Source: a virus. From it: DNA of 23,391 nucleotides. The stretch spans positions 1 to 23,391 of the IMG/VR virus record IMGVR_UViG_3300027852_000170. One strand, 5' to 3'. A model generated the notes under the pieces. The model saw only the letters and a list, made by a program, of their open reading frames with translations. It made no database searches and was not told where the DNA came from. Shown here one piece after another: positions 7,971-23,205 of this stretch. Numbering within the stretch: position 1 is the stretch's first letter; each line of letters begins with the position of its first letter. The translations under genes were made by a program, and so were the position numbers.

Positions 7971-8267
7971 TTATGTAAACTCATAAAACTCGTTGTCTCC
8001 TTTGATTGTGGTCATAAAAGGAAAATCAGCTTTATCTATTTTTTGTATTTGATTCATCAGAACTTTAGAGCCTGTAAAAACCACATTTCTAAAACCCTTA
8101 TTTTCTATTTGCAAAGTCAAGTATTTTGTTCCTGGTGTTTGAGTTGAGTCTTTAATTTTAAAATCAAGTACTATTATTTCAGTATTTAAAATTCGTCCTA
8201 TTTTTATTTTATCTCCTGTAAATGACGAAATTTCAGGAGCTATATTAAAATCACTAAATTTCTTCAT
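7971..8267 (-). CDS. RT-coupled 98-aa protein, candidate DGR accessory factor
   Basis: A 98-aa protein whose ATG (8267) lies inside the end of the RT gene; the frames overlap by 14 bp, so translation is very likely coupled to that of the RT. The sequence is mostly short beta strands (IKIGRILNTEIIVLDFKI, TKYLTLQIENKGFRNVVFTG) with one short helix (GSKVLMNQIQKI), compatible with a small OB-fold or other beta-barrel nucleic-acid binding domain. It is not a four-helix protein and therefore not a typical Avd, the usual DGR accessory factor. The function is unknown. Binding of template RNA or cDNA is an inference from coupling and fold pattern alone. Confidence 0.65.
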   Translation of the reverse strand: MKKFSDFNIAPEISSFTGDKIKIGRILNTEIIVLDFKIKDSTQTPGTKYLTLQIENKGFRNVVFTGSKVLMNQIQKIDKADFPFMTTIKGDNEFYEFT

Positions 8268-9297: not shown

Positions 9298-9411
9298 TGT
9301 AATGCAATAATTTTATAAGATGGGCGCTGACGTTCGAGTTCGTATTCCAGTTATCGTAGTTGTTATACGAGAAACTGACACCCGAAGGAGAACTACAGCA
9401 ACGGCATTACA
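9298..9411 (-). ncRNA. DGR template RNA region with flanking 8-bp inverted repeat
   Basis: The 187-bp interval between the VP1 stop and the RT start contains the template repeat and no gene. TGTAATGC (9298-9305) and GCATTACA (9404-9411) are a perfect inverted repeat enclosing it, which could pair in the transcript and present the template as a loop. DGR template RNAs are normally structured and extend beyond the repeat. The transcript ends are unknown, so the boundaries given are only those of the inverted repeat. Confidence 0.6.
9322..9393 (-). repeat. DGR template repeat (TR), 72 bp
   Basis: Read on the minus strand, this 72-bp segment matches the variable repeats of the two upstream genes without gaps. 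In the reading frame of the targets it encodes SPSGVSFS, YNNYDNWNTN and SNVSA, with six Asn codons of the AAY type. AAY is the classic template codon because adenine mutation there gives many residues without stop codons. It has 18 adenines on this strand. The distal end reads GCGCCCATC where both variable repeats read GCGCCCGCC, an IMH*/IMH-like difference marking the copy that is only donor. Confidence 0.95.
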
Positions 9412-9423
9412 CAACCCTAATTA

Positions 9424-9801
9424 TTATTCTATCTTTCTTTCATAAACCATTATATCCTTGTATAATTCAGGGAACGTTTCGGCTATATGTTCAGCTGCTT
9501 CACTCGATTCTGAAACGAGGCGGGCGCCGACGCCCGAGATCGTAGCCCAGCGATCGTAGTCGAGAAACGAGAAACCGACACCCGAAGGAGAACCCATTTT
9601 AAACCATGGATTGTATTTATTCCATTCTCCGTCCGTAAAATCTGGTTGAAACTCTGGGTTTACAGCATCAACTACTACAAATAGTTTTGCCATTGAAATA
9701 AGCGCTTGTTTATGTCGTTCAGGAACGCCTTTAATAGTAATTGCGTTAGGATCTAAATTTTCTAGCTTAAAAGCTTCTTCTACTGATTTAATTTTTTTCA
9801 T
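9424..9801 (-). CDS. DGR target protein 1 (VP1), 125 aa, with internal variable region
   Basis: ATG 9801; 125 aa. An N-terminal part (1-50) of unknown function is followed by DFTDGEWNKYNPWFKMGSPSGVGFS (54-78). The variable repeat spans residues about 70-94, then an invariant tail (GARLVSESSEAAEHI...) of about 30 residues. The variable positions are spaced like surface positions of a C-type-lectin-like scaffold around fixed Y, D, W, S and V residues. It shares the PxFKMGSPSGVGFS and VGAR frame with target 2. I recall this small-protein family in Bacteroidota prophages (P-W-F...VGSRLCF pattern) but no function is known. It has no signal peptide and no tail-fibre features, and it ends 30 bp before the template repeat. 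Confidence 0.9.
   Translation of the reverse strand: MKKIKSVEEAFKLENLDPNAITIKGVPERHKQALISMAKLFVVVDAVNPEFQPDFTDGEWNKYNPWFKMGSPSGVGFSFLDYDRWATISGVGARLVSESSEAAEHIAETFPELYKDIMVYERKIE
9522..9593 (-). repeat. DGR variable repeat VR1 in target 1
   Basis: A 72-bp ungapped match to the template. On the coding strand it differs at 13 of 72 positions and all 13 are template adenines (to G, T or C). The 54 non-adenine positions are identical. Encoded changes relative to the template include Ser to Gly, Tyr to Phe, and Asn to Leu, Asp, Arg, Ala, Ile and Gly. Three bases past its distal end is an imperfect hairpin (9503-9519, arms CTCGATT and AAACGAG, six of seven pairs), similar in position to the hairpins that follow the target repeat in other DGRs. 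Confidence 0.95.
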
Positions 9802-9811
9802 GATTTTAATA

Positions 9812-10273
9812 TTAAGAGGTTCTTGATTGTTTGTACTCTGGTAAAAATTTCTTTACTGCATCCAACATATGTTTCTTTGCTTTTGGTCCACAAAAAACTT
9901 GGCGGGCGCCGACGAGCGAGTACGAATTCCAGTCATCGTAGTTGAAATACGAGAAACCGACACCCGAAGGAGAACCCATCTTAAAATATGGCCAATATTT
10001 ATAGGTTCCATCTGTAAAGTCTGGTAACTTACCTTCATTATAAGCTGCTACAATTAGCTTCTCTTTTCGATAACCTATTTCATCTGGAAGTAAACCTTCG
10101 TTTACCTTATCAAATTCTAGCCTAGTAATACTATTGGCAGCAAGTATGTCATCAAAAGTTTGTAATCTTTCGATAATTGATTTTGGAGTTTCTTTAAATT
10201 TAATGACTCCTTCTTTTTTATTGAGATAATCTACCTCGAACCCTTCAGGGATTTCAAATTTTAGTGTTTTCAT
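9812..10273 (-). CDS. DGR target protein 2 (VP2), 153 aa, with internal variable region
   Basis: ATG 10273 overlaps the stop of the preceding gene (ATGA). The N-terminus (MKTLKFEIPEGFEVDYLNKK) is a compact beta motif, followed by a helical middle (30-80). Then comes PDFTDGTYKYWPYFKMG, the variable segment (100-124: SPSGVGFSYFNYDDWNSYSLVGAR), and a 29-residue basic tail. It is paralogous to target 1 from about residue 84 onward but has an unrelated N-terminus, so the two present one variable scaffold on different N-terminal parts. The template-matching segment is internal, not C-terminal. Function unknown; a binding protein is the natural inference for a DGR target. Confidence 0.9.
   Translation of the reverse strand: MKTLKFEIPEGFEVDYLNKKEGVIKFKETPKSIIERLQTFDDILAANSITRLEFDKVNEGLLPDEIGYRKEKLIVAAYNEGKLPDFTDGTYKYWPYFKMGSPSGVGFSYFNYDDWNSYSLVGARQVFCGPKAKKHMLDAVKKFLPEYKQSRTS
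9904..9975 (-). repeat. DGR variable repeat VR2 in target 2
   Basis: A 72-bp ungapped match to the template. On the coding strand it differs at 9 positions, all at template adenines. The Ser-to-Gly changes at both ends of the repeat are the same as in VR1, while the central changes differ (Asn to Phe, Asp, Tyr, Leu; Thr to Ser). Eight bases beyond its distal end is a small 5-bp hairpin TTTTG/CAAAA (9881-9895), weaker than the one after VR1. Confidence 0.95.
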
Positions 10274-14588: not shown

Positions 14589-15054
14589 TAATATTCTTTT
14601 TATTCATTTTCTTTTTAATTCGAGAAATAGACATATCAGAGGTGTTAAAATCCTTAGCTATTGCCTTTAGCGTATCTCCTTTTTCAAGGCGCTTTTCTAT
14701 TTTCTCTACATCCTTTTTAGAAAGTTGACTCAGGCTACTTCGTTTCACCTCTTTGGTTCCCATTTTTGGGTTGAATCCACAGGGTTTCCATTCTAAATTG
14801 GTATAATGAAATCCTTTACTTTTTTCGATGCGTGTTGCACACCAGCGTGGATTATCAGCCATACCATTCCAACACTCACAAACTAATTTTGCAACACTGT
14901 TTGAACGACCTTTGAAGTACACGTACTTTAAGTCTGTATTTCGTTCTTTGCGATTGGCTTCTTTTACTTCTAAAGTTTCGCCACAACACAAAACACTACT
15001 GCCATCTTCATTGACTTTTAAACCTTCTATTTCTGGATGATATCTATATGCCAT
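14581..15054 (-). CDS. HNH-derived protein with lost catalytic residues and a C-terminal HTH
   Basis: A 157-aa protein. Residues 1-93 follow the plan of phage HNH endonucleases with an N-terminal NUMOD-like strand region: SVAKLVCECWNGMADNPRW...FHYTNLEWKPCG. But the V-N-H-x-D-G motif that normally precedes N-x-x-x-N-L-E-W is replaced (WCATRIEKSKG), so catalytic His residues appear to be missing. Residues 113-151 are a helix-turn-helix (KKDVEKIEKRLEKGDTLKAIAKDFNTSDMSISRIKKKM). It is likely a DNA-binding regulator made from a homing-endonuclease scaffold. It sits directly after the MuB-like gene (11-bp overlap). Confidence 0.65.
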   Translation of the reverse strand: MAYRYHPEIEGLKVNEDGSSVLCCGETLEVKEANRKERNTDLKYVYFKGRSNSVAKLVCECWNGMADNPRWCATRIEKSKGFHYTNLEWKPCGFNPKMGTKEVKRSSLSQLSKKDVEKIEKRLEKGDTLKAIAKDFNTSDMSISRIKKKMNKKNING

Positions 15055-15895
15055 TTTCTAATTTGTAAATTCTTATTAACTCAGCAGCGATTCGTAAATC
15101 ACCATTGCATTTTTTTTGGATTGTACTTATCACTACTCTATCTGTGATTCCCTGTGCAGCTGCAAGTAGAGCTACATCTGCAGCACTTGTTTGTTCTAAT
15201 TCGATAAAGGTTCCAAATCGACTCAAGAGCTCTTCATATCCTTTTCTTCGGTTTCTAACTCCATCTTCCAATCGTTTTTTGAAATAATATGTTGACTGAA
15301 GTACAATGCTGCACTTCCATTTTAGTTCGTTATAGAATGTGATCAGGAAGTATAACATGCAATCACGAAGTTTATCCACTTCATCAACAATTAACTCTGG
15401 TGGAGTATCGTAATTTTTCAATCCTTTTATTATCTCTTCCATCATTTGTGGAATGCGATTGTGAGGATTACGAATTCCCATCTCCATTAAAATTTGCTGA
15501 AGGAAATGTTTTTCATCCCAATAAGAAGCGCATTCAACTCTGATAACATCTGAATTTTCAGAAGCATATTTTTTTGATACTTCTGTTTTACCAGATCCTG
15601 CATTTGCAATGATGGAAACAACCGATTGTTGCTGTTTTACTTTTTCTAATGTGGTTAGTAAAAACTTTGCATTGGTTGTTTCTACAAATTGCCAAGAGTG
15701 AGAATTATAGCCAATTTGATTGCCAATGTTTCTAAACATTTCATTACTGTAAGGTTCCCAATTCCCATTAATTAAATGAGAGATTACTGCAGTAGATACT
15801 CCTTTTAAAGAAGCAGCTGCTTTATTCTGTGAACCTTTACGATTCACATAGACTTGTAATAAGTCAACTATTTTTTGTTTCTCTTTTTGTACCAT
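15044..15895 (-). CDS. MuB-like AAA+ ATPase, transposition target selector
   Basis: 283 aa. An N-terminal HTH (about 22-47, KAAASLKGVSTAVISHLINGNW) precedes an AAA+ core with Walker A ANAGSGKT (97-104), Walker B ELIVDEVDKL (167-176) and a sensor-like SIVLQSTYYFKKRL. The C-terminal helices end with CNGDLRIAAELIRIYKL, as in Mu B and related transposition ATPases. It binds target DNA, recruits the transposase and gives target immunity. It follows the transposase gene by 7 bp, the standard A-B order of transposable phages. Confidence 0.9.
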   Translation of the reverse strand: MVQKEKQKIVDLLQVYVNRKGSQNKAAASLKGVSTAVISHLINGNWEPYSNEMFRNIGNQIGYNSHSWQFVETTNAKFLLTTLEKVKQQQSVVSIIANAGSGKTEVSKKYASENSDVIRVECASYWDEKHFLQQILMEMGIRNPHNRIPQMMEEIIKGLKNYDTPPELIVDEVDKLRDCMLYFLITFYNELKWKCSIVLQSTYYFKKRLEDGVRNRRKGYEELLSRFGTFIELEQTSAADVALLAAAQGITDRVVISTIQKKCNGDLRIAAELIRIYKLENGI

Positions 15896-15902
15896 GGTAA
15901 CT

Positions 15903-17924
15903 TTAGTTATTAATTATTCTATCAAATAGTGAATCACTATCACTTTGTAAATTTTCTTCTTTGGTTGCATATGCTGCACGTTTGGCAGCAAACTCGTAGT
16001 TGTTTTGCCCTTCAATTAGTGTATCTCTACTTATTCCTGTACGCTCAACAATATCTAAGTAGGCATTCCAATCATGCGATCTTACTTTTTCACGTACCTC
16101 AAGGTCCTTAAGCATCTGTTTATGCTCTCCTGGTTGTTTCAAGATGGCCACTTCTACATGTCTTCGTTTCTTTTGAGCATATCCTACAAATACCTTTTCT
16201 TCATTTTCGTTAATTCGATAAAGGGCTACATAGTCCTCCAGGTATTCCGGATCATAACTCACTATTAATTTTTGTTGCACATACTTGAGTTGGAAATCGA
16301 TATCGACATTACCATGTTCATCATATACTTCATATAAGTAATCTTGACCAGCTACCGTTAAAGGCATTCCGTGTGCATAGTATTTCTTAGGCTTAGTTTC
16401 ATTGATCCAAAACATTGAAATACGTTCTAGTGTTCCAAGTTCCTGAGTGTATTTTGATTTGATATTGAAGTACTCATTTCGAGTTTTTGAAGCTTTCTTC
16501 GATCGTAATCGTTCGTTCCATTCCTGGACCATTATCTCCCAATGTTTCTGAAGCTCTTCAAAAGAGGGTAAGGCTCCTTTATTTTCGTGAATAAAATCTA
16601 AGTTAGCTTTAGATCGTAATTGTTTTGTTTTGATACCTTGGCCATCAGAGAACCAACGTTTATTTATAACCTGTTGCTGCAGTCTGTTAAAAACCTGTTC
16701 AATAGGATTTGATTTTCTACCTACTTTGTGATGGTAATGTTGACCTCCTTTTGCAATTACTTTACTATAAAGCTCTTGCATTCGTTTTGATCTATGAGCG
16801 GACTGAGCATCGTACGTAAATAAATAAGGTTTTGCTCCAGCTTCATCTACTGCCATTCTAAGTGCTATAAAATGATCAATATGATTCTCAGTTAATGAAA
16901 ATGAATAACCAAGTATCTTTTCAGAAAACACATCGATAACAACATTGATCTTACAGACCGCTGCCATCTTAGATTTATTGTCCCAATAATGAACTGCATC
17001 AAGCTTAGTTCCATCAATGGCCCAGTGAGCATTTGGAAATAATCTATTTTTATCTTTGCTTAATGTATGAGCATAACGTTTATTGTAAACTTCCTCGCCG
17101 TGCCTTGCTAAGGTCCAAATACGTTCTCTTTCAGGTTTCATTAAGTAATTCGCAATACCAGACTCAGATAAATAAGGCCATCCATAATTACATCTCACTT
17201 TATTATAAAGCTCATGGAGATCATAAAATGAATTCTTAATAGGTAGGCATTGTTGAGCCATTAACCAATCTCCAATTTCATCAGTTATTTTAATTGAATT
17301 AGAATTACAATAATTATCATGAATTAAACCTTCTAGTCCTGTACGTGGATACCTCTTGTTTGGTTTTTCTAAAATGCAAGATTCGTATTTTGCTCGTAGA
17401 GCTCTGGAGTTGGTTGGTAGATCAAAAGGATATCGATCTTTAATTTCTTTGGAGAGGCTATGGATTGATTTTGTAAAGCGACTCCATAATTCGCCTTTGT
17501 TGATTTTTGGGTTTGCAGTAGTGATCTTTGCATGAACCTCTTTAATTGCATTAAACACAATTACATTGGCTGTATAGGTCTCAACTGCTTTTTCGTTTAC
17601 TTCAGATAAATACCTACTATCTTCAAGTTCGTAATTTGCAAAAAATGCAGCTACATTTTCATCATACTTTAAGTACCTGGAGAATGGAATTGTTTTACTT
17701 TCTTCGTAAGGATCTATCTGCAGATCATGCTCTATGATATTACGGAAGCGTTGTGGAAGACTATCATAAATGTATAAAGCGTAATTTCCTAAACCTCTAC
17801 CAGAACGAGCCTTTTTGATTTTACCTTTGTGGACCAAAAACTTCAAATTTGAAATAGAAGTTATTCCAGTTTCATCAAGCCAATTAGCTCTTACACATAA
17901 AGTATTTCCGTAATATTCAAACAT
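15903..17924 (-). CDS. MuA-like DDE transposase of a transposable prophage
   Basis: 673 aa from ATG 17924 (MFEYYGNTLCVR). The longer frame upstream is discounted because it would translate a GC-rich hairpin. N-terminal winged-helix-type DNA-binding segments (MFEYYGNTLCVRANWL...GYALYIYDSLP-like) recognise the phage ends. The catalytic core of the rve/RNase H type shows HWAIDGTKLD (Asp304), FTYDAQSAH (Asp372) and SNPIEQVFNRLQ (Glu409). A beta-barrel region and charged tail follow, as in MuA domain III. It performs strand transfer for integration and replicative transposition. It is the first gene of the long early operon. Confidence 0.92.
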   Translation of the reverse strand: MFEYYGNTLCVRANWLDETGITSISNLKFLVHKGKIKKARSGRGLGNYALYIYDSLPQRFRNIIEHDLQIDPYEESKTIPFSRYLKYDENVAAFFANYELEDSRYLSEVNEKAVETYTANVIVFNAIKEVHAKITTANPKINKGELWSRFTKSIHSLSKEIKDRYPFDLPTNSRALRAKYESCILEKPNKRYPRTGLEGLIHDNYCNSNSIKITDEIGDWLMAQQCLPIKNSFYDLHELYNKVRCNYGWPYLSESGIANYLMKPERERIWTLARHGEEVYNKRYAHTLSKDKNRLFPNAHWAIDGTKLDAVHYWDNKSKMAAVCKINVVIDVFSEKILGYSFSLTENHIDHFIALRMAVDEAGAKPYLFTYDAQSAHRSKRMQELYSKVIAKGGQHYHHKVGRKSNPIEQVFNRLQQQVINKRWFSDGQGIKTKQLRSKANLDFIHENKGALPSFEELQKHWEIMVQEWNERLRSKKASKTRNEYFNIKSKYTQELGTLERISMFWINETKPKKYYAHGMPLTVAGQDYLYEVYDEHGNVDIDFQLKYVQQKLIVSYDPEYLEDYVALYRINENEEKVFVGYAQKKRRHVEVAILKQPGEHKQMLKDLEVREKVRSHDWNAYLDIVERTGISRDTLIEGQNNYEFAAKRAAYATKEENLQSDSDSLFDRIINN

Positions 17925-17943
17925 ATTATTTTTTTTACTTAGT

Positions 17944-17983
17944 TCCCGCCGTGGTGTCGAAACCACGCTAAGCCGTGGCGGGA
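17944..17983. promoter_or_regulatory. GC-rich hairpin in the transposase leader with alternative pairings
   Basis: TCCCGCC (17944-17950) and GGCGGGA (17977-17983) are a perfect 7-bp inverted repeat in otherwise AT-rich DNA, 20 bp before the transposase ATG. Inside, GTGGT/ACCAC (17951-17966) and CCACG/CGTGG (17963-17978) are mutually exclusive hairpins sharing the CCAC segment. GCCGTGG also occurs twice in direct order. This may be an attenuator-like leader or a protein-binding site; it lacks a long U run on the transposase side. Confidence 0.45.
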
Positions 17984-17986
17984 TTT

Positions 17987-18023
17987 TCACTATATTTGGA
18001 TTACCAATCTTAAACTATAGTGA
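17987..18023. promoter_or_regulatory. Divergent promoter region with 8-bp inverted repeat and a TAnnTTTG box
   Basis: TCACTATA (17987-17994) and TATAGTGA (18016-18023) form an inverted repeat centred between the transposase leader and the zinc-ribbon gene, suitable for a dimeric regulator. TATATTTG (17991-17998, +) matches the Bacteroidota -7 box TAnnTTTG and lies 27 bp before the plus-strand ATG. No clear -33 TTTG is seen. The promoter call is therefore tentative. Confidence 0.35.
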
Positions 18024-20919: not shown

Positions 20920-22041
20920 ATGCCAATACCAACAATGACCAATGCGCAAAACGCAAAGAATGATGAATTTTACACTCAATATCACGACATTGAAAAAGAA
21001 GTTTCGGCATATTTAGAATTTAATCCTGAAATATTTAAAGATAAAACTGTACTTCTACCTTGTGACGACCCAGAATGGAGCAATTTCACAAAGTATTTTG
21101 CACAAAATTTTGAAAGATTTGGATTAAAAAAAATAGTAAGTACAAGTTATGCGCCTGCGAGTAAATTATACAAACTAAAAAATCAACCAACACTTTTTGA
21201 AACCAAACACCCAAACTTTGACAAAGATAAAACTATTCAAAACGGTAAAATTTTCACTTTAACTCGTGATATTTCTGGAGATGGAAAAATAGATATTGAT
21301 GATTTAGAATGGGAATATTTAAATGGAGATGGAGATTTCAACAGCAAAGAAATCCAAGCATTACGAGACGAAGCTGACATTATTGTAACGAATCCGCCTT
21401 TTTCCCTATTTAGAGATTTTTTAGCTTGGGTTACTAACGCTAATAAGCTTTTTTTAATTATCGGAAATTTAAATGCAATCGCTTATAAAGAACTTTTTCC
21501 TTTAATTCAAAGCGACCAACTATGGTTAGGCGCAACAAATTTCAATAAAGGTATGTACTTTCAAGTGCCAGAAGACTTTGTTTATTCTGACTCTTACAAA
21601 TTTGAAAGAGAACAAAATGGAGTAAAAGTTAATCGTGTTCCTGGTGTTTGTTGGTTTACTAATATTGACCACGGAAGAAGACATCAGCCATTACCACTTA
21701 TGACAATGTCGGATAATATAAAATTTAGTCGACACAAAGATATTAAAGGAAAAGAGTACGAAAAATATGAAAATTATGACGCTATAGAGATACCTTGGGT
21801 TGATTCTATTCCAAGCGATTATGATGGAATTATGGGTGTTCCAATTACGTTTATTGACAAATATTCACCTGAACAATTTGAAATAATTTGGCAAGCGACT
21901 GGAAACACAAGAGCTTCTGCACCAAAGGAAATATTAGAAAGACTTAAATACATACCTCTTAAAGAAGACAGAGGTGGTGGAGCTGTCGTTAATGGAAAAA
22001 GAAAATTCGGCAGAATCTTAATAAAACATAGAAAGAAATAA
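20920..22041 (+). CDS. Adenine-specific DNA methyltransferase, EcoRI methylase family
   Basis: 373 aa; ATG 20920, or ATG 20935 (MTNAQNAKNDEFYTQ), which fits the family's usual start better. Family marks: KNDEFYTQY near the N-terminus, the LLPCDDPEWSNF segment (45-56), and the catalytic NPPF tetrapeptide (158-161) in IIVTNPPFSLFRDFL. WQATGN (about 330-335) and the GRILIKHR end are also typical. It should transfer a methyl group to adenine N6 in a specific site, protecting the DNA from a partner nuclease. Residues about 118-142 contain DGKIDIDDLEWEYLNGDGDF, longer than the simple GDGDF turn I associate with this family. It abuts the next gene with no gap. Confidence 0.88.
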   Translation: MPIPTMTNAQNAKNDEFYTQYHDIEKEVSAYLEFNPEIFKDKTVLLPCDDPEWSNFTKYFAQNFERFGLKKIVSTSYAPASKLYKLKNQPTLFETKHPNFDKDKTIQNGKIFTLTRDISGDGKIDIDDLEWEYLNGDGDFNSKEIQALRDEADIIVTNPPFSLFRDFLAWVTNANKLFLIIGNLNAIAYKELFPLIQSDQLWLGATNFNKGMYFQVPEDFVYSDSYKFEREQNGVKVNRVPGVCWFTNIDHGRRHQPLPLMTMSDNIKFSRHKDIKGKEYEKYENYDAIEIPWVDSIPSDYDGIMGVPITFIDKYSPEQFEIIWQATGNTRASAPKEILERLKYIPLKEDRGGGAVVNGKRKFGRILIKHRKK

Positions 22042-23205
22042 ATGGAAAATATATTAAGAACAGATATAACAGTAAAGGATATTTGCGAGGGTTTTGTTTA
22101 TAATGAACTTGAGGGAAAAGGTTTATTTGGTTTATCAGGCAAATTAACTATTCAGCCAGAATATCAACGTAATTATATTTATGCAGATGGAAAAAAAGAT
22201 GTTGCAGTAATTGAATCTATATTAAAAAAATATCCTCTTGGACTTATTTATTTCAATAAAGTGAGTGATGAAAAGTTTGAAGTTTTAGATGGTCAGCAAC
22301 GAATTACGAGTATTGGTCGCTATGTATCAAATAAATTCGCCATTAAAGATGATAATGGAATGGAGCAATATTTTAGTGGAATCGCTAAAAGTAAACAGGA
22401 TTTGATTTTACAAACGCCTTTACTGATTTATGAATGTGAGGGAACTGAACCTGAAATTAAGAATTGGTTTCGCACCATTAATATTGTTGGTGTTCCGCTA
22501 AATAATCAAGAAATTAATAATGCTGTCTTTTCTGGACCTTTTGTGACTTTAGCAAAAGAAGAGTTTAGTAATAGTCAAAATTCAAACGTTCACAAATGGA
22601 GTGCTTACATATCAGGTAGCGCTAACCGTCAAGATTTTTTAGAGCGTGCTTTAGATTGGGTTAGTAAAGGCGAGATTATTCCATATATGAGCTTACATCG
22701 CTATGACGACAATATTAATGAACTAAAAACTTACTTCACAAGTGTAATTGATTGGGTTTCTGGAGTATTTAAAGATGTTGAGTCAGAAATGAAAGGACTG
22801 AAATGGGGAGAATTTTATGAGACTTACAGAAAGCAACCTTATAATCCTCAAAAAGTTTCAGAGCAAGTAAAACAACTTTACGCTGACCCTTATGTTAAAA
22901 ATAGAAAAGGAGTTTTTGAATATGTTTTAGGAGGTTTAACAGACACCAAATTACTTGATGTTAGAGTATTTGACGAAGCAACAAAAAAAGCAATTTATTC
23001 AAAACAAACACAAGAATCAGAGAAAAAAGAAGTTTCCAATTGTCCACTTTGTGCTATTGGAAATAATTCTAATAAAACGAGAATTTATAAGTTAAAAGAA
23101 ATGGATGCTGACCACGTAACAGCTTGGAGTAAAGGAGGAAAAACAGATATAAAAAATTGCGAAATGTTATGTAAAACTCATAACCGAGCAAAAGGAAATA
23201 AATAA
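22042..23205 (+). CDS. DUF262-HNH nuclease, probable restriction partner of the methyltransferase
   Basis: 387 aa, starting at the base after the methyltransferase stop. The N-terminal DUF262 (GmrS/ParB-like) domain has [11 protein letters not shown] (37-47) and [14 protein letters not shown] (81-94), with the DGQQR motif of that NTPase-related fold. The middle is helical. The C-terminus is an HNH nuclease with structural zinc cysteines CPLC (334-337), D357-H358, N372-C373, and [11 protein letters not shown] (C377, His380). DUF262-HNH proteins cut DNA, in some systems depending on modification. Next to a dedicated methyltransferase it most likely acts as the restriction enzyme, though modification-dependent defence is the alternative. 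Confidence 0.85.

Follow-up and report, generated by a model that had tools for sequence, protein, structure and literature searches.

A complete DGR in the early operon of a Mu-like phage

The stretch of DNA analysed here, called the window below, is an IMG/VR virus record of 23,391 nt (Table 1). Every gene between positions 17,990 and 7,756 lies on the minus strand, in the order transposase, MuB-like ATPase, another ATPase (phrog_6891), small genes including a partial replication-initiation match, and finally a DGR; the placement of the DGR targets in a transposase/replication operon, proposed in an earlier note on this DNA, is thereby borne out. Terminase, head-tail adaptor, portal/minor head and neck genes are carried by the plus strand and are convergent with this operon. 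The combination of a DDE transposase (phrog_310) and a MuB-like ATPase (phrog_296), by which Mu-like transposable phages are recognised, is present. Since the record spans 23.4 kb and contains no recognised tail genes, it is probably a fragment of a phage genome. Two plus-strand genes at the right end (20920-23205) look by eye like a DNA methyltransferase-type and a DUF262/HNH-type gene, possibly cargo or host flank.

Table 1. Coordinates of the early-operon and DGR features in the window
Feature	Position	Strand	Match or remark
Mu-type transposase	15903..17990	-	phrog_310, E 1.1e-48; heads same-strand early operon
MuB-like transposition ATPase	15044..15895	-	phrog_296, E 3.1e-51
Target 2 (upstream), 153 aa	9812..10273	-	phrog_11581, E 1.9e-4; orthologues in ~70 loci
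VR2, internal to target 2	9904..9975	-	9 mismatches to TR, all at TR adenines
Target 1 (downstream), 125 aa	9424..9801	-	phrog_11581, E 3.7e-11
VR1, internal to target 1	9522..9593	-	13 mismatches to TR, all at TR adenines
TR	9322..9393	-	3' end GTCAGCGCCC, with fixed A where both VRs have G (IMH*/IMH-like boundary)
DGR RT, up to 327 aa	8254..9237	-	phrog_1423, E 1.1e-117; PF00078, E 1.3e-15; motifs IGNYLSQ and YADD
98-aa ORF directly after RT	7971..8267	-	phrog_19665; conserved cassette partner

The DGR is complete and is arranged as target 2, target 1, TR, RT and a 98-aa ORF. Both target ORFs have exactly the positions and the lengths of 125 and 153 aa given earlier. Over the aligned 72 nt, all 22 mismatches between the TR and the two VRs (13 + 9) fall at TR adenines and none elsewhere, an outcome with a chance probability of ~6e-14, given 18 A among the 72 TR bases. 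The translated RT contains the sequence IGNYLSQ, which conforms to the (I/V/L)GxxxSQ motif of DGR-clade RTs (PMC3521204); relatives align from about residue 6, and its true start may be an internal ATG. We regard it as practically certain that the small targets are diversified by this DGR.

Neither VR reaches the C-terminus of its protein: 30-32 residues follow it in the window, close to the tail of about 30 residues that had been described. The two targets share the scaffold around the VR (their C-terminal halves are ~50% identical) and differ in their N-termini, again as had been noticed; target 2 consists of an N-terminal beta-hairpin module joined to the variable scaffold. When the ORFs surrounding the RT were searched against protein families, no Avd was detected, and the conserved 98-aa ORF sits there instead. 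The ORF comes after the RT in 74 of 81 loci, and the RT of phage BT-TP2 ends in a similar domain, a C-terminal extension (E 3e-5); for these reasons its product is probably a partner of the DGR and a candidate accessory protein.

The same cassette in relatives

An RT query of IMG/VR returned 303 relatives, from which 80 loci with RTs 65-74% identical were kept, each of which was scanned by a script for repeats whose differences lie mainly at template adenines. Among 81 loci, the window included, 62 have two targets, five have three, eight have one and six have none, the last six all being devoid of upstream sequence. Nearly every locus with enough upstream sequence contains two or three targets of ~120-165 aa with an internal VR, a TR and an RT. 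Upstream targets are mostly 150-165 aa and downstream ones mostly 120-139 aa long, typically with 20-36 residues beyond the VR. In the relatives, 2,117 of 2,181 TR/VR mismatches are at TR adenines and 64 elsewhere, a proportion produced by a script that favours adenine mismatches by design; the comparisons made in the window, in a near-identical pair of loci and in LoVEphage are independent of it. PHROG 11581, a family of unknown function, was matched by 61 of the 64 downstream-type targets.

Upstream targets have one of two interchangeable N-terminal modules, an IPEG beta-hairpin or a short helical 'KAHEEA..LLENLFG' segment, joined to the same scaffold, which hints at a common docking partner. 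Several loci deviate from the usual architecture. One downstream target (L005:5427-5744) has a disrupted C-terminus and another target, in a locus where no RT was found (L104), an in-frame stop; L096 has an RT and no detected VR. All three are possible cases of decay. In L111 and L115, too, a target is present and the available sequence contains no RT. L096, L104, L111 and L115 may be relics or sequence gaps.

Boundaries and variability of the rewritten segment

To locate the variable positions, 144 VRs were aligned with their own TRs on the glycine of the VG(S/A)R motif. At positions -14 to -2, almost no change other than at adenines was observed, and the AAY codons at -12, -8, -6, -4 and -2 reach an entropy of 3.3-3.7 bits. 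The variable segment of about 25 residues claimed earlier agrees with the VR itself, which has 24 codons, whereas the truly variable tract of the 144 VRs covers only ~13 residues. Between -8 and -2, highly variable residues alternate with more conserved ones, as would be expected from one face of a strand.

The 3' boundary is marked by fixed differences, TR AGC against VR GGC in 136 of 136 cases and TR CAY against VR CGY in 122 of 123. Judged from the aligned sequences, they resemble the IMH*/IMH boundary of known DGRs, here placed within a gene. Another fixed A-to-G difference (TR TCA, VR TCG), synonymous and in third codon position, is found ~19 codons upstream of the VGSR glycine in 72 of 73 VRs; it suggests either an upstream limit of the copied tract or a constraint on TR RNA structure.

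Recent VR change and selection on the scaffold

The window phage is represented by one sequence, and recent VR change was seen in near-identical relatives. Two loci of the window lineage (L018 and L019) differ at 11 of 169 VR sites versus 14 of 10,868 sites outside the TR and VRs. In a pair of LoVEphage-type genomes, 20 of 113 VR sites differ versus 0 of 472 other sites of the small gene, and the 23 polymorphic VR sites of the small gene in six such genomes are all opposite TR adenines. Outside the VR, dN/dS between related loci ranges from 0.01 to 0.24; the pooled pN/pS of VRs is ~3. These ratios indicate that the scaffold is under purifying selection while the loop is rewritten.

Small proteins as the only targets found in the window lineage

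Fifteen relatives with records of 38-55 kb were scanned with their TR on both strands, two of the scans covering all but the last few hundred bases. No tail gene with a VR was detected in any of the 15, the small targets being the only matches. The possibility that the window lineage has a tail VR beyond the end of the record was considered and dropped on this result. Likewise, a target profile run over 30 records recovered small genes and the TR only. In the record of locus L033 an additional, third small target with A-only change lies 13.6 kb from the RT (L199:10637-10706), which shows that distant targeting also takes place in a lineage with small targets only.

The wider family in Bacteroidota phages and prophages

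Queries of viral and genome contigs with single target proteins gave no match; the RT query, followed by a narrow target alignment, was productive. In the genome collection, the narrow alignment retrieved 76 loci, nearly all from Bacteroidota (the exceptions being one Ignavibacteria MAG and two MAGs labelled Clostridia), and 33 of the 76 have an RT of the same kind in the locus. No homologue was obtained in a plasmid search. Flavobacteriia, Chitinophagia, Sphingobacteriia, Cytophagia and Bacteroidia all have phages or prophages in which this family is targeted by a DGR. In two crAss-like phages of the genus Buchavirus, the loop region of 135-aa homologues (L259:4992-5399 and L260:4977-5381) looks variable.

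Homologues from gut Bacteroidales, which belong to PHROG 11581 (one matches it with E 1.3e-60 over positions 3-195), have no RT nearby; in most genomes examined an RT is present on the same contig, mostly 13-43 kb away. Homologues without a linked RT had been named as a possible refutation, one that fails here, an RT with its TR being found mostly 13-42 kb off on the same contig. In eight of ten gut prophages, comparison of the small-gene VR with the RT-adjacent TR revealed change restricted or nearly restricted to adenines (0-2 other mismatches; A/other counts of, for example, 21/0, 15/0, 14/0, 14/0 and 10/0). Of the other prophages, one (L243/L244) has a weak TR match with 9 A and 8 other mismatches and one (L231/L232) none. 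Both a variability peak and linked RT/TR pairs, the test set for the homologues, were observed, and the idea of a widespread, uncharacterised Bacteroidota family hypervariable in the same segment holds.

The same eight prophages possess a second VR of the same TR, 5-22 residues from the end of a large tail-type gene, near its 3' end. From their size, position and annotated cases, these large second targets appear to be tail genes. In BT-TP2 the A/other counts are 14/0 for the large gene and 13/0 for the small one; LoVEphage (19/0, adjoining an annotated tail collar fibre gene) and Versailles (14/0) behave alike. Because the TR of gut phages also acts on a tail-type gene, at its 3' end, the small protein of gut phages is an added target and not a replacement for the tail-type one. 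The earlier statement that the DGR targets are not tail fibres is supported for the window lineage in so far as its targets are not recognisable as tail proteins, with no tail-family match and no tail VR in the 15 long relatives, and does not extend to the gut Bacteroidales, whose TR serves a tail-type gene as well.

As one TR serves both genes, the VR peptide of the gut homologue resembles that of the large tail-type protein, and its likeness to the large tail-type PHROG is confined to the VR (phrog_14959, positions 2445-2487). The small early target of Versailles (L250:6965-7546) carries the annotation 'tail protein', a label probably owed to the likeness of its VR to the one at the C-terminus of tail proteins.

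In the RT tree, several gut RTs nest with the window group and BT-TP2-type RTs form a separate deep lineage (support 100/99, to be read with caution on account of long branches). The phylogeny therefore suggests that at least two RT lineages have recruited the small family.

Gene neighbourhoods and predicted structure

In the window lineage, a MuB-like gene is present in 18 loci and convergent head genes in ~25. Elsewhere, the small target is located between a RecT-like protein/metallo-hydrolase and DnaD/DnaC-like loaders (L141), beside a RecE-like exonuclease, a helicase, a replication initiator and a primase (L150), between NinB and the replisome organiser (Versailles), or among methyltransferases with a tRNA ligase (LoVEphage and BI-TP1). 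None of the neighbourhoods examined had a small target in a tail module. A hydrophobic segment resembling a membrane helix occurs in one of 138 targets and is absent from the other 137.

AlphaFold models of the window targets (mean pLDDT 87 for target 2 and 80 for target 1) consist mostly of helices, two of which are C-terminal, and form a short sheet at the VR; an N-terminal hairpin is present in target 2 only. Searches of the PDB by sequence and by fold yielded no usable match. No C-type-lectin match appeared among the PDB searches of the models, in which the VR itself is of low confidence and poorly determined. A 121-aa protein with ~60 N-terminal residues modelled as helical would leave little room for a standard C-type lectin domain. 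All significant matches in a viral structure library are uncharacterised phage proteins, including those of crAss-like phages. The targets had no match in Pfam or NCBIfam, members of the upstream-target alignment gave scattered weak Pfam matches only, and family searches found no tail family for the targets.

Possible role of the diversified proteins

We propose that the DGR at the distal end of the Mu-like early operon copies its TR into adenine-mutagenised cDNA, which would retrohome into the two adjacent small genes. Each product would consist of the PHROG 11581 scaffold with a hairpin or loop of ~13 residues rewritten at alternating, fully variable positions and otherwise kept. The small proteins are expected to be transcribed with the early genes, to be cytosolic and to expose the loop. 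The variable hairpin may then bind a fast-changing partner in the host cell, most plausibly host defence proteins, so that a phage population would at all times include individuals capable of neutralising whatever defences the next host has.

Taken as a whole, the small proteins are, in our judgement, probably a non-virion, early, intracellular diversified binder. Counter-defence as the specific purpose is proposed tentatively and falls short of an even chance. Three things make it the best-fitting purpose: the family turns up repeatedly beside genes for replication, recombination and DNA modification, the phages keep two or three copies that vary independently, and the authors of two earlier studies held a similar view on distal VRs of gut phages. 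Against an intracellular binder, the gut TR is shared with a tail-type protein and the variable peptide could have an adhesion-type role. The sharing of one TR by a tail-type 3' end and a small gene in BT-TP2, LoVEphage, Versailles and the gut prophages, the 'tail protein' annotation of the Versailles copy and the preponderance of tail proteins among characterised phage DGR targets (PMC8144416) would all suit a part in receptor binding, as minor virion or tail-tip accessory proteins encoded at an unusual locus. We nevertheless consider such a role improbable: the genes lie in recombination/replication operons, convergent with head genes in the window, their resemblance to tail proteins is limited to the VR, which the TR overwrites (phrog_14959, 2445-2487), and gut phages already have a conventional tail-type target.

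The partner could also be a rival phage. As a system of superinfection exclusion or a phage-carried immune receptor, acting in the lysogen or early in infection, the small proteins would recognise proteins of competing phages by their VR; bacteria do have DGR-diversified cytoplasmic putative sensors (PMC10907252). Many carriers of the family are prophages or induced temperate phages (BI-TP1 and PV4-TP1). However, the early operon of Mu-like phages is normally repressed in the lysogen, and family searches recognised no effector domain in these proteins of 120-200 aa, which makes this role unlikely in our view. The consistent placement among replication and recombination genes of unrelated phages would also agree with binding of DNA, RNA or host replication and repair factors, the hairpin tuning replication or transposition in new hosts with no defence involved. 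Such tuning seems a rather poor prospect, given that no nucleic-acid-binding family or fold was matched and that hypervariation would be unusual towards a housekeeping partner. Finally, the small genes might be passive hitch-hikers that share the TR sequence and are mutated as a by-product, with no selected function, a reading to which the TR common to tail-type targets in gut phages and the occasional broken copies (L005, L104) lend themselves. The purifying selection on the scaffold (dN/dS) already largely refutes it; moreover, two targets are kept in 62 loci and three in five, the small genes are the sole targets in 15 long records, and the family is present with at least two deep RT lineages, which together leave it hardly any credence.

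Returning to the intracellular binder, it is possible, though we hold it with reserve, that we are dealing with a dedicated intracellular DGR system, in which the loop of an early scaffold is rewritten against proteins of host defence or rival phages as an antibody-like counter-defence, either as the sole purpose (window lineage) or beside tail diversification (gut phages). Phage DGRs have so far been understood almost only as diversifiers of host attachment. If the small proteins, in many of the family's phages the only target found, work inside the cell, hypermutation would be aimed at an interaction after entry, suggesting that DGRs can arm the virus inside the cell besides changing its attachment range. 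As LoVEphage-type phages and Versailles have already been induced or isolated, the intracellular reading is directly testable.

Comparison with known DGR systems

With the BPP-1-type DGR, which diversifies the tail-tip protein Mtd, the present system shares an SQ-motif RT, adenine-specific VR change, AAY-rich TR codons and fixed 3'-boundary differences. In contrast to it, the targets of the window are small, lie outside the tail module, have an internal VR and number two or three per cassette, the fixed boundary is inside coding sequence, and a 98-aa ORF follows the RT. According to Roux et al. (2021), VRs are C-terminal in targets with a C-type lectin, and the targets of viral DGRs are for the most part tail proteins (PMC8144416). 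The finding of a VR, fixed 3' boundary included, within a gene goes against the usual explanation for C-terminal VRs.

Distal non-structural VRs are already known in a few gut phages. Benler et al. (2021) reported a distal non-structural second DGR target in Quimbyvirus (PMC8008677), and in a 2025 Nature study four prophage species were reported to have a second, distal VR close to methyltransferases (PMC12629997). These share with our family a hypervariable non-structural gene away from the RT, and the Quimbyvirus target has the same kind of neighbourhood as the LoVEphage/BI-TP1 copy (methyltransferases and tRNA ligase), as far as descriptions can be compared. The distal targets were, however, reported as a C-type-lectin protein or an unnamed gene in few phages, whereas here a single family, PHROG 11581, extends over many Bacteroidota lineages; they were also second targets, whereas in the window lineage a PHROG 11581 protein is the only target found. 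Leaving aside the DGR classification of Wu et al. (2018), we found no description of the distal targets as one small-protein family, nor of this family as the tandem-pair sole target, in consistent context, of a large group of Bacteroidota phage DGRs; both appear new.

The Hankyphage DGR diversifies a tail protein, from which the window lineage, with its early-operon targets, would differ. Hankyphage is alike in being a transposable Bacteroides phage with a DGR (PMC6199706, PMC12135933). Tentaclins (PMC10743442) also come as two DGR targets per TR with a non-terminal VR, but they are proteins of 569-579 aa with C-type-lectin and Ig-like domains, described as receptor-binding, while the present ones have 120-200 aa and no such domains. 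The DGR-diversified cytoplasmic proteins of multicellular bacteria and cyanobacteria (PMC10907252, PMC7517822) are similar in being predicted intracellular targets; they are often multidomain, with a C-terminal C-type lectin joined to a kinase, NTPase or other domain, in contrast to the small phage proteins described here.
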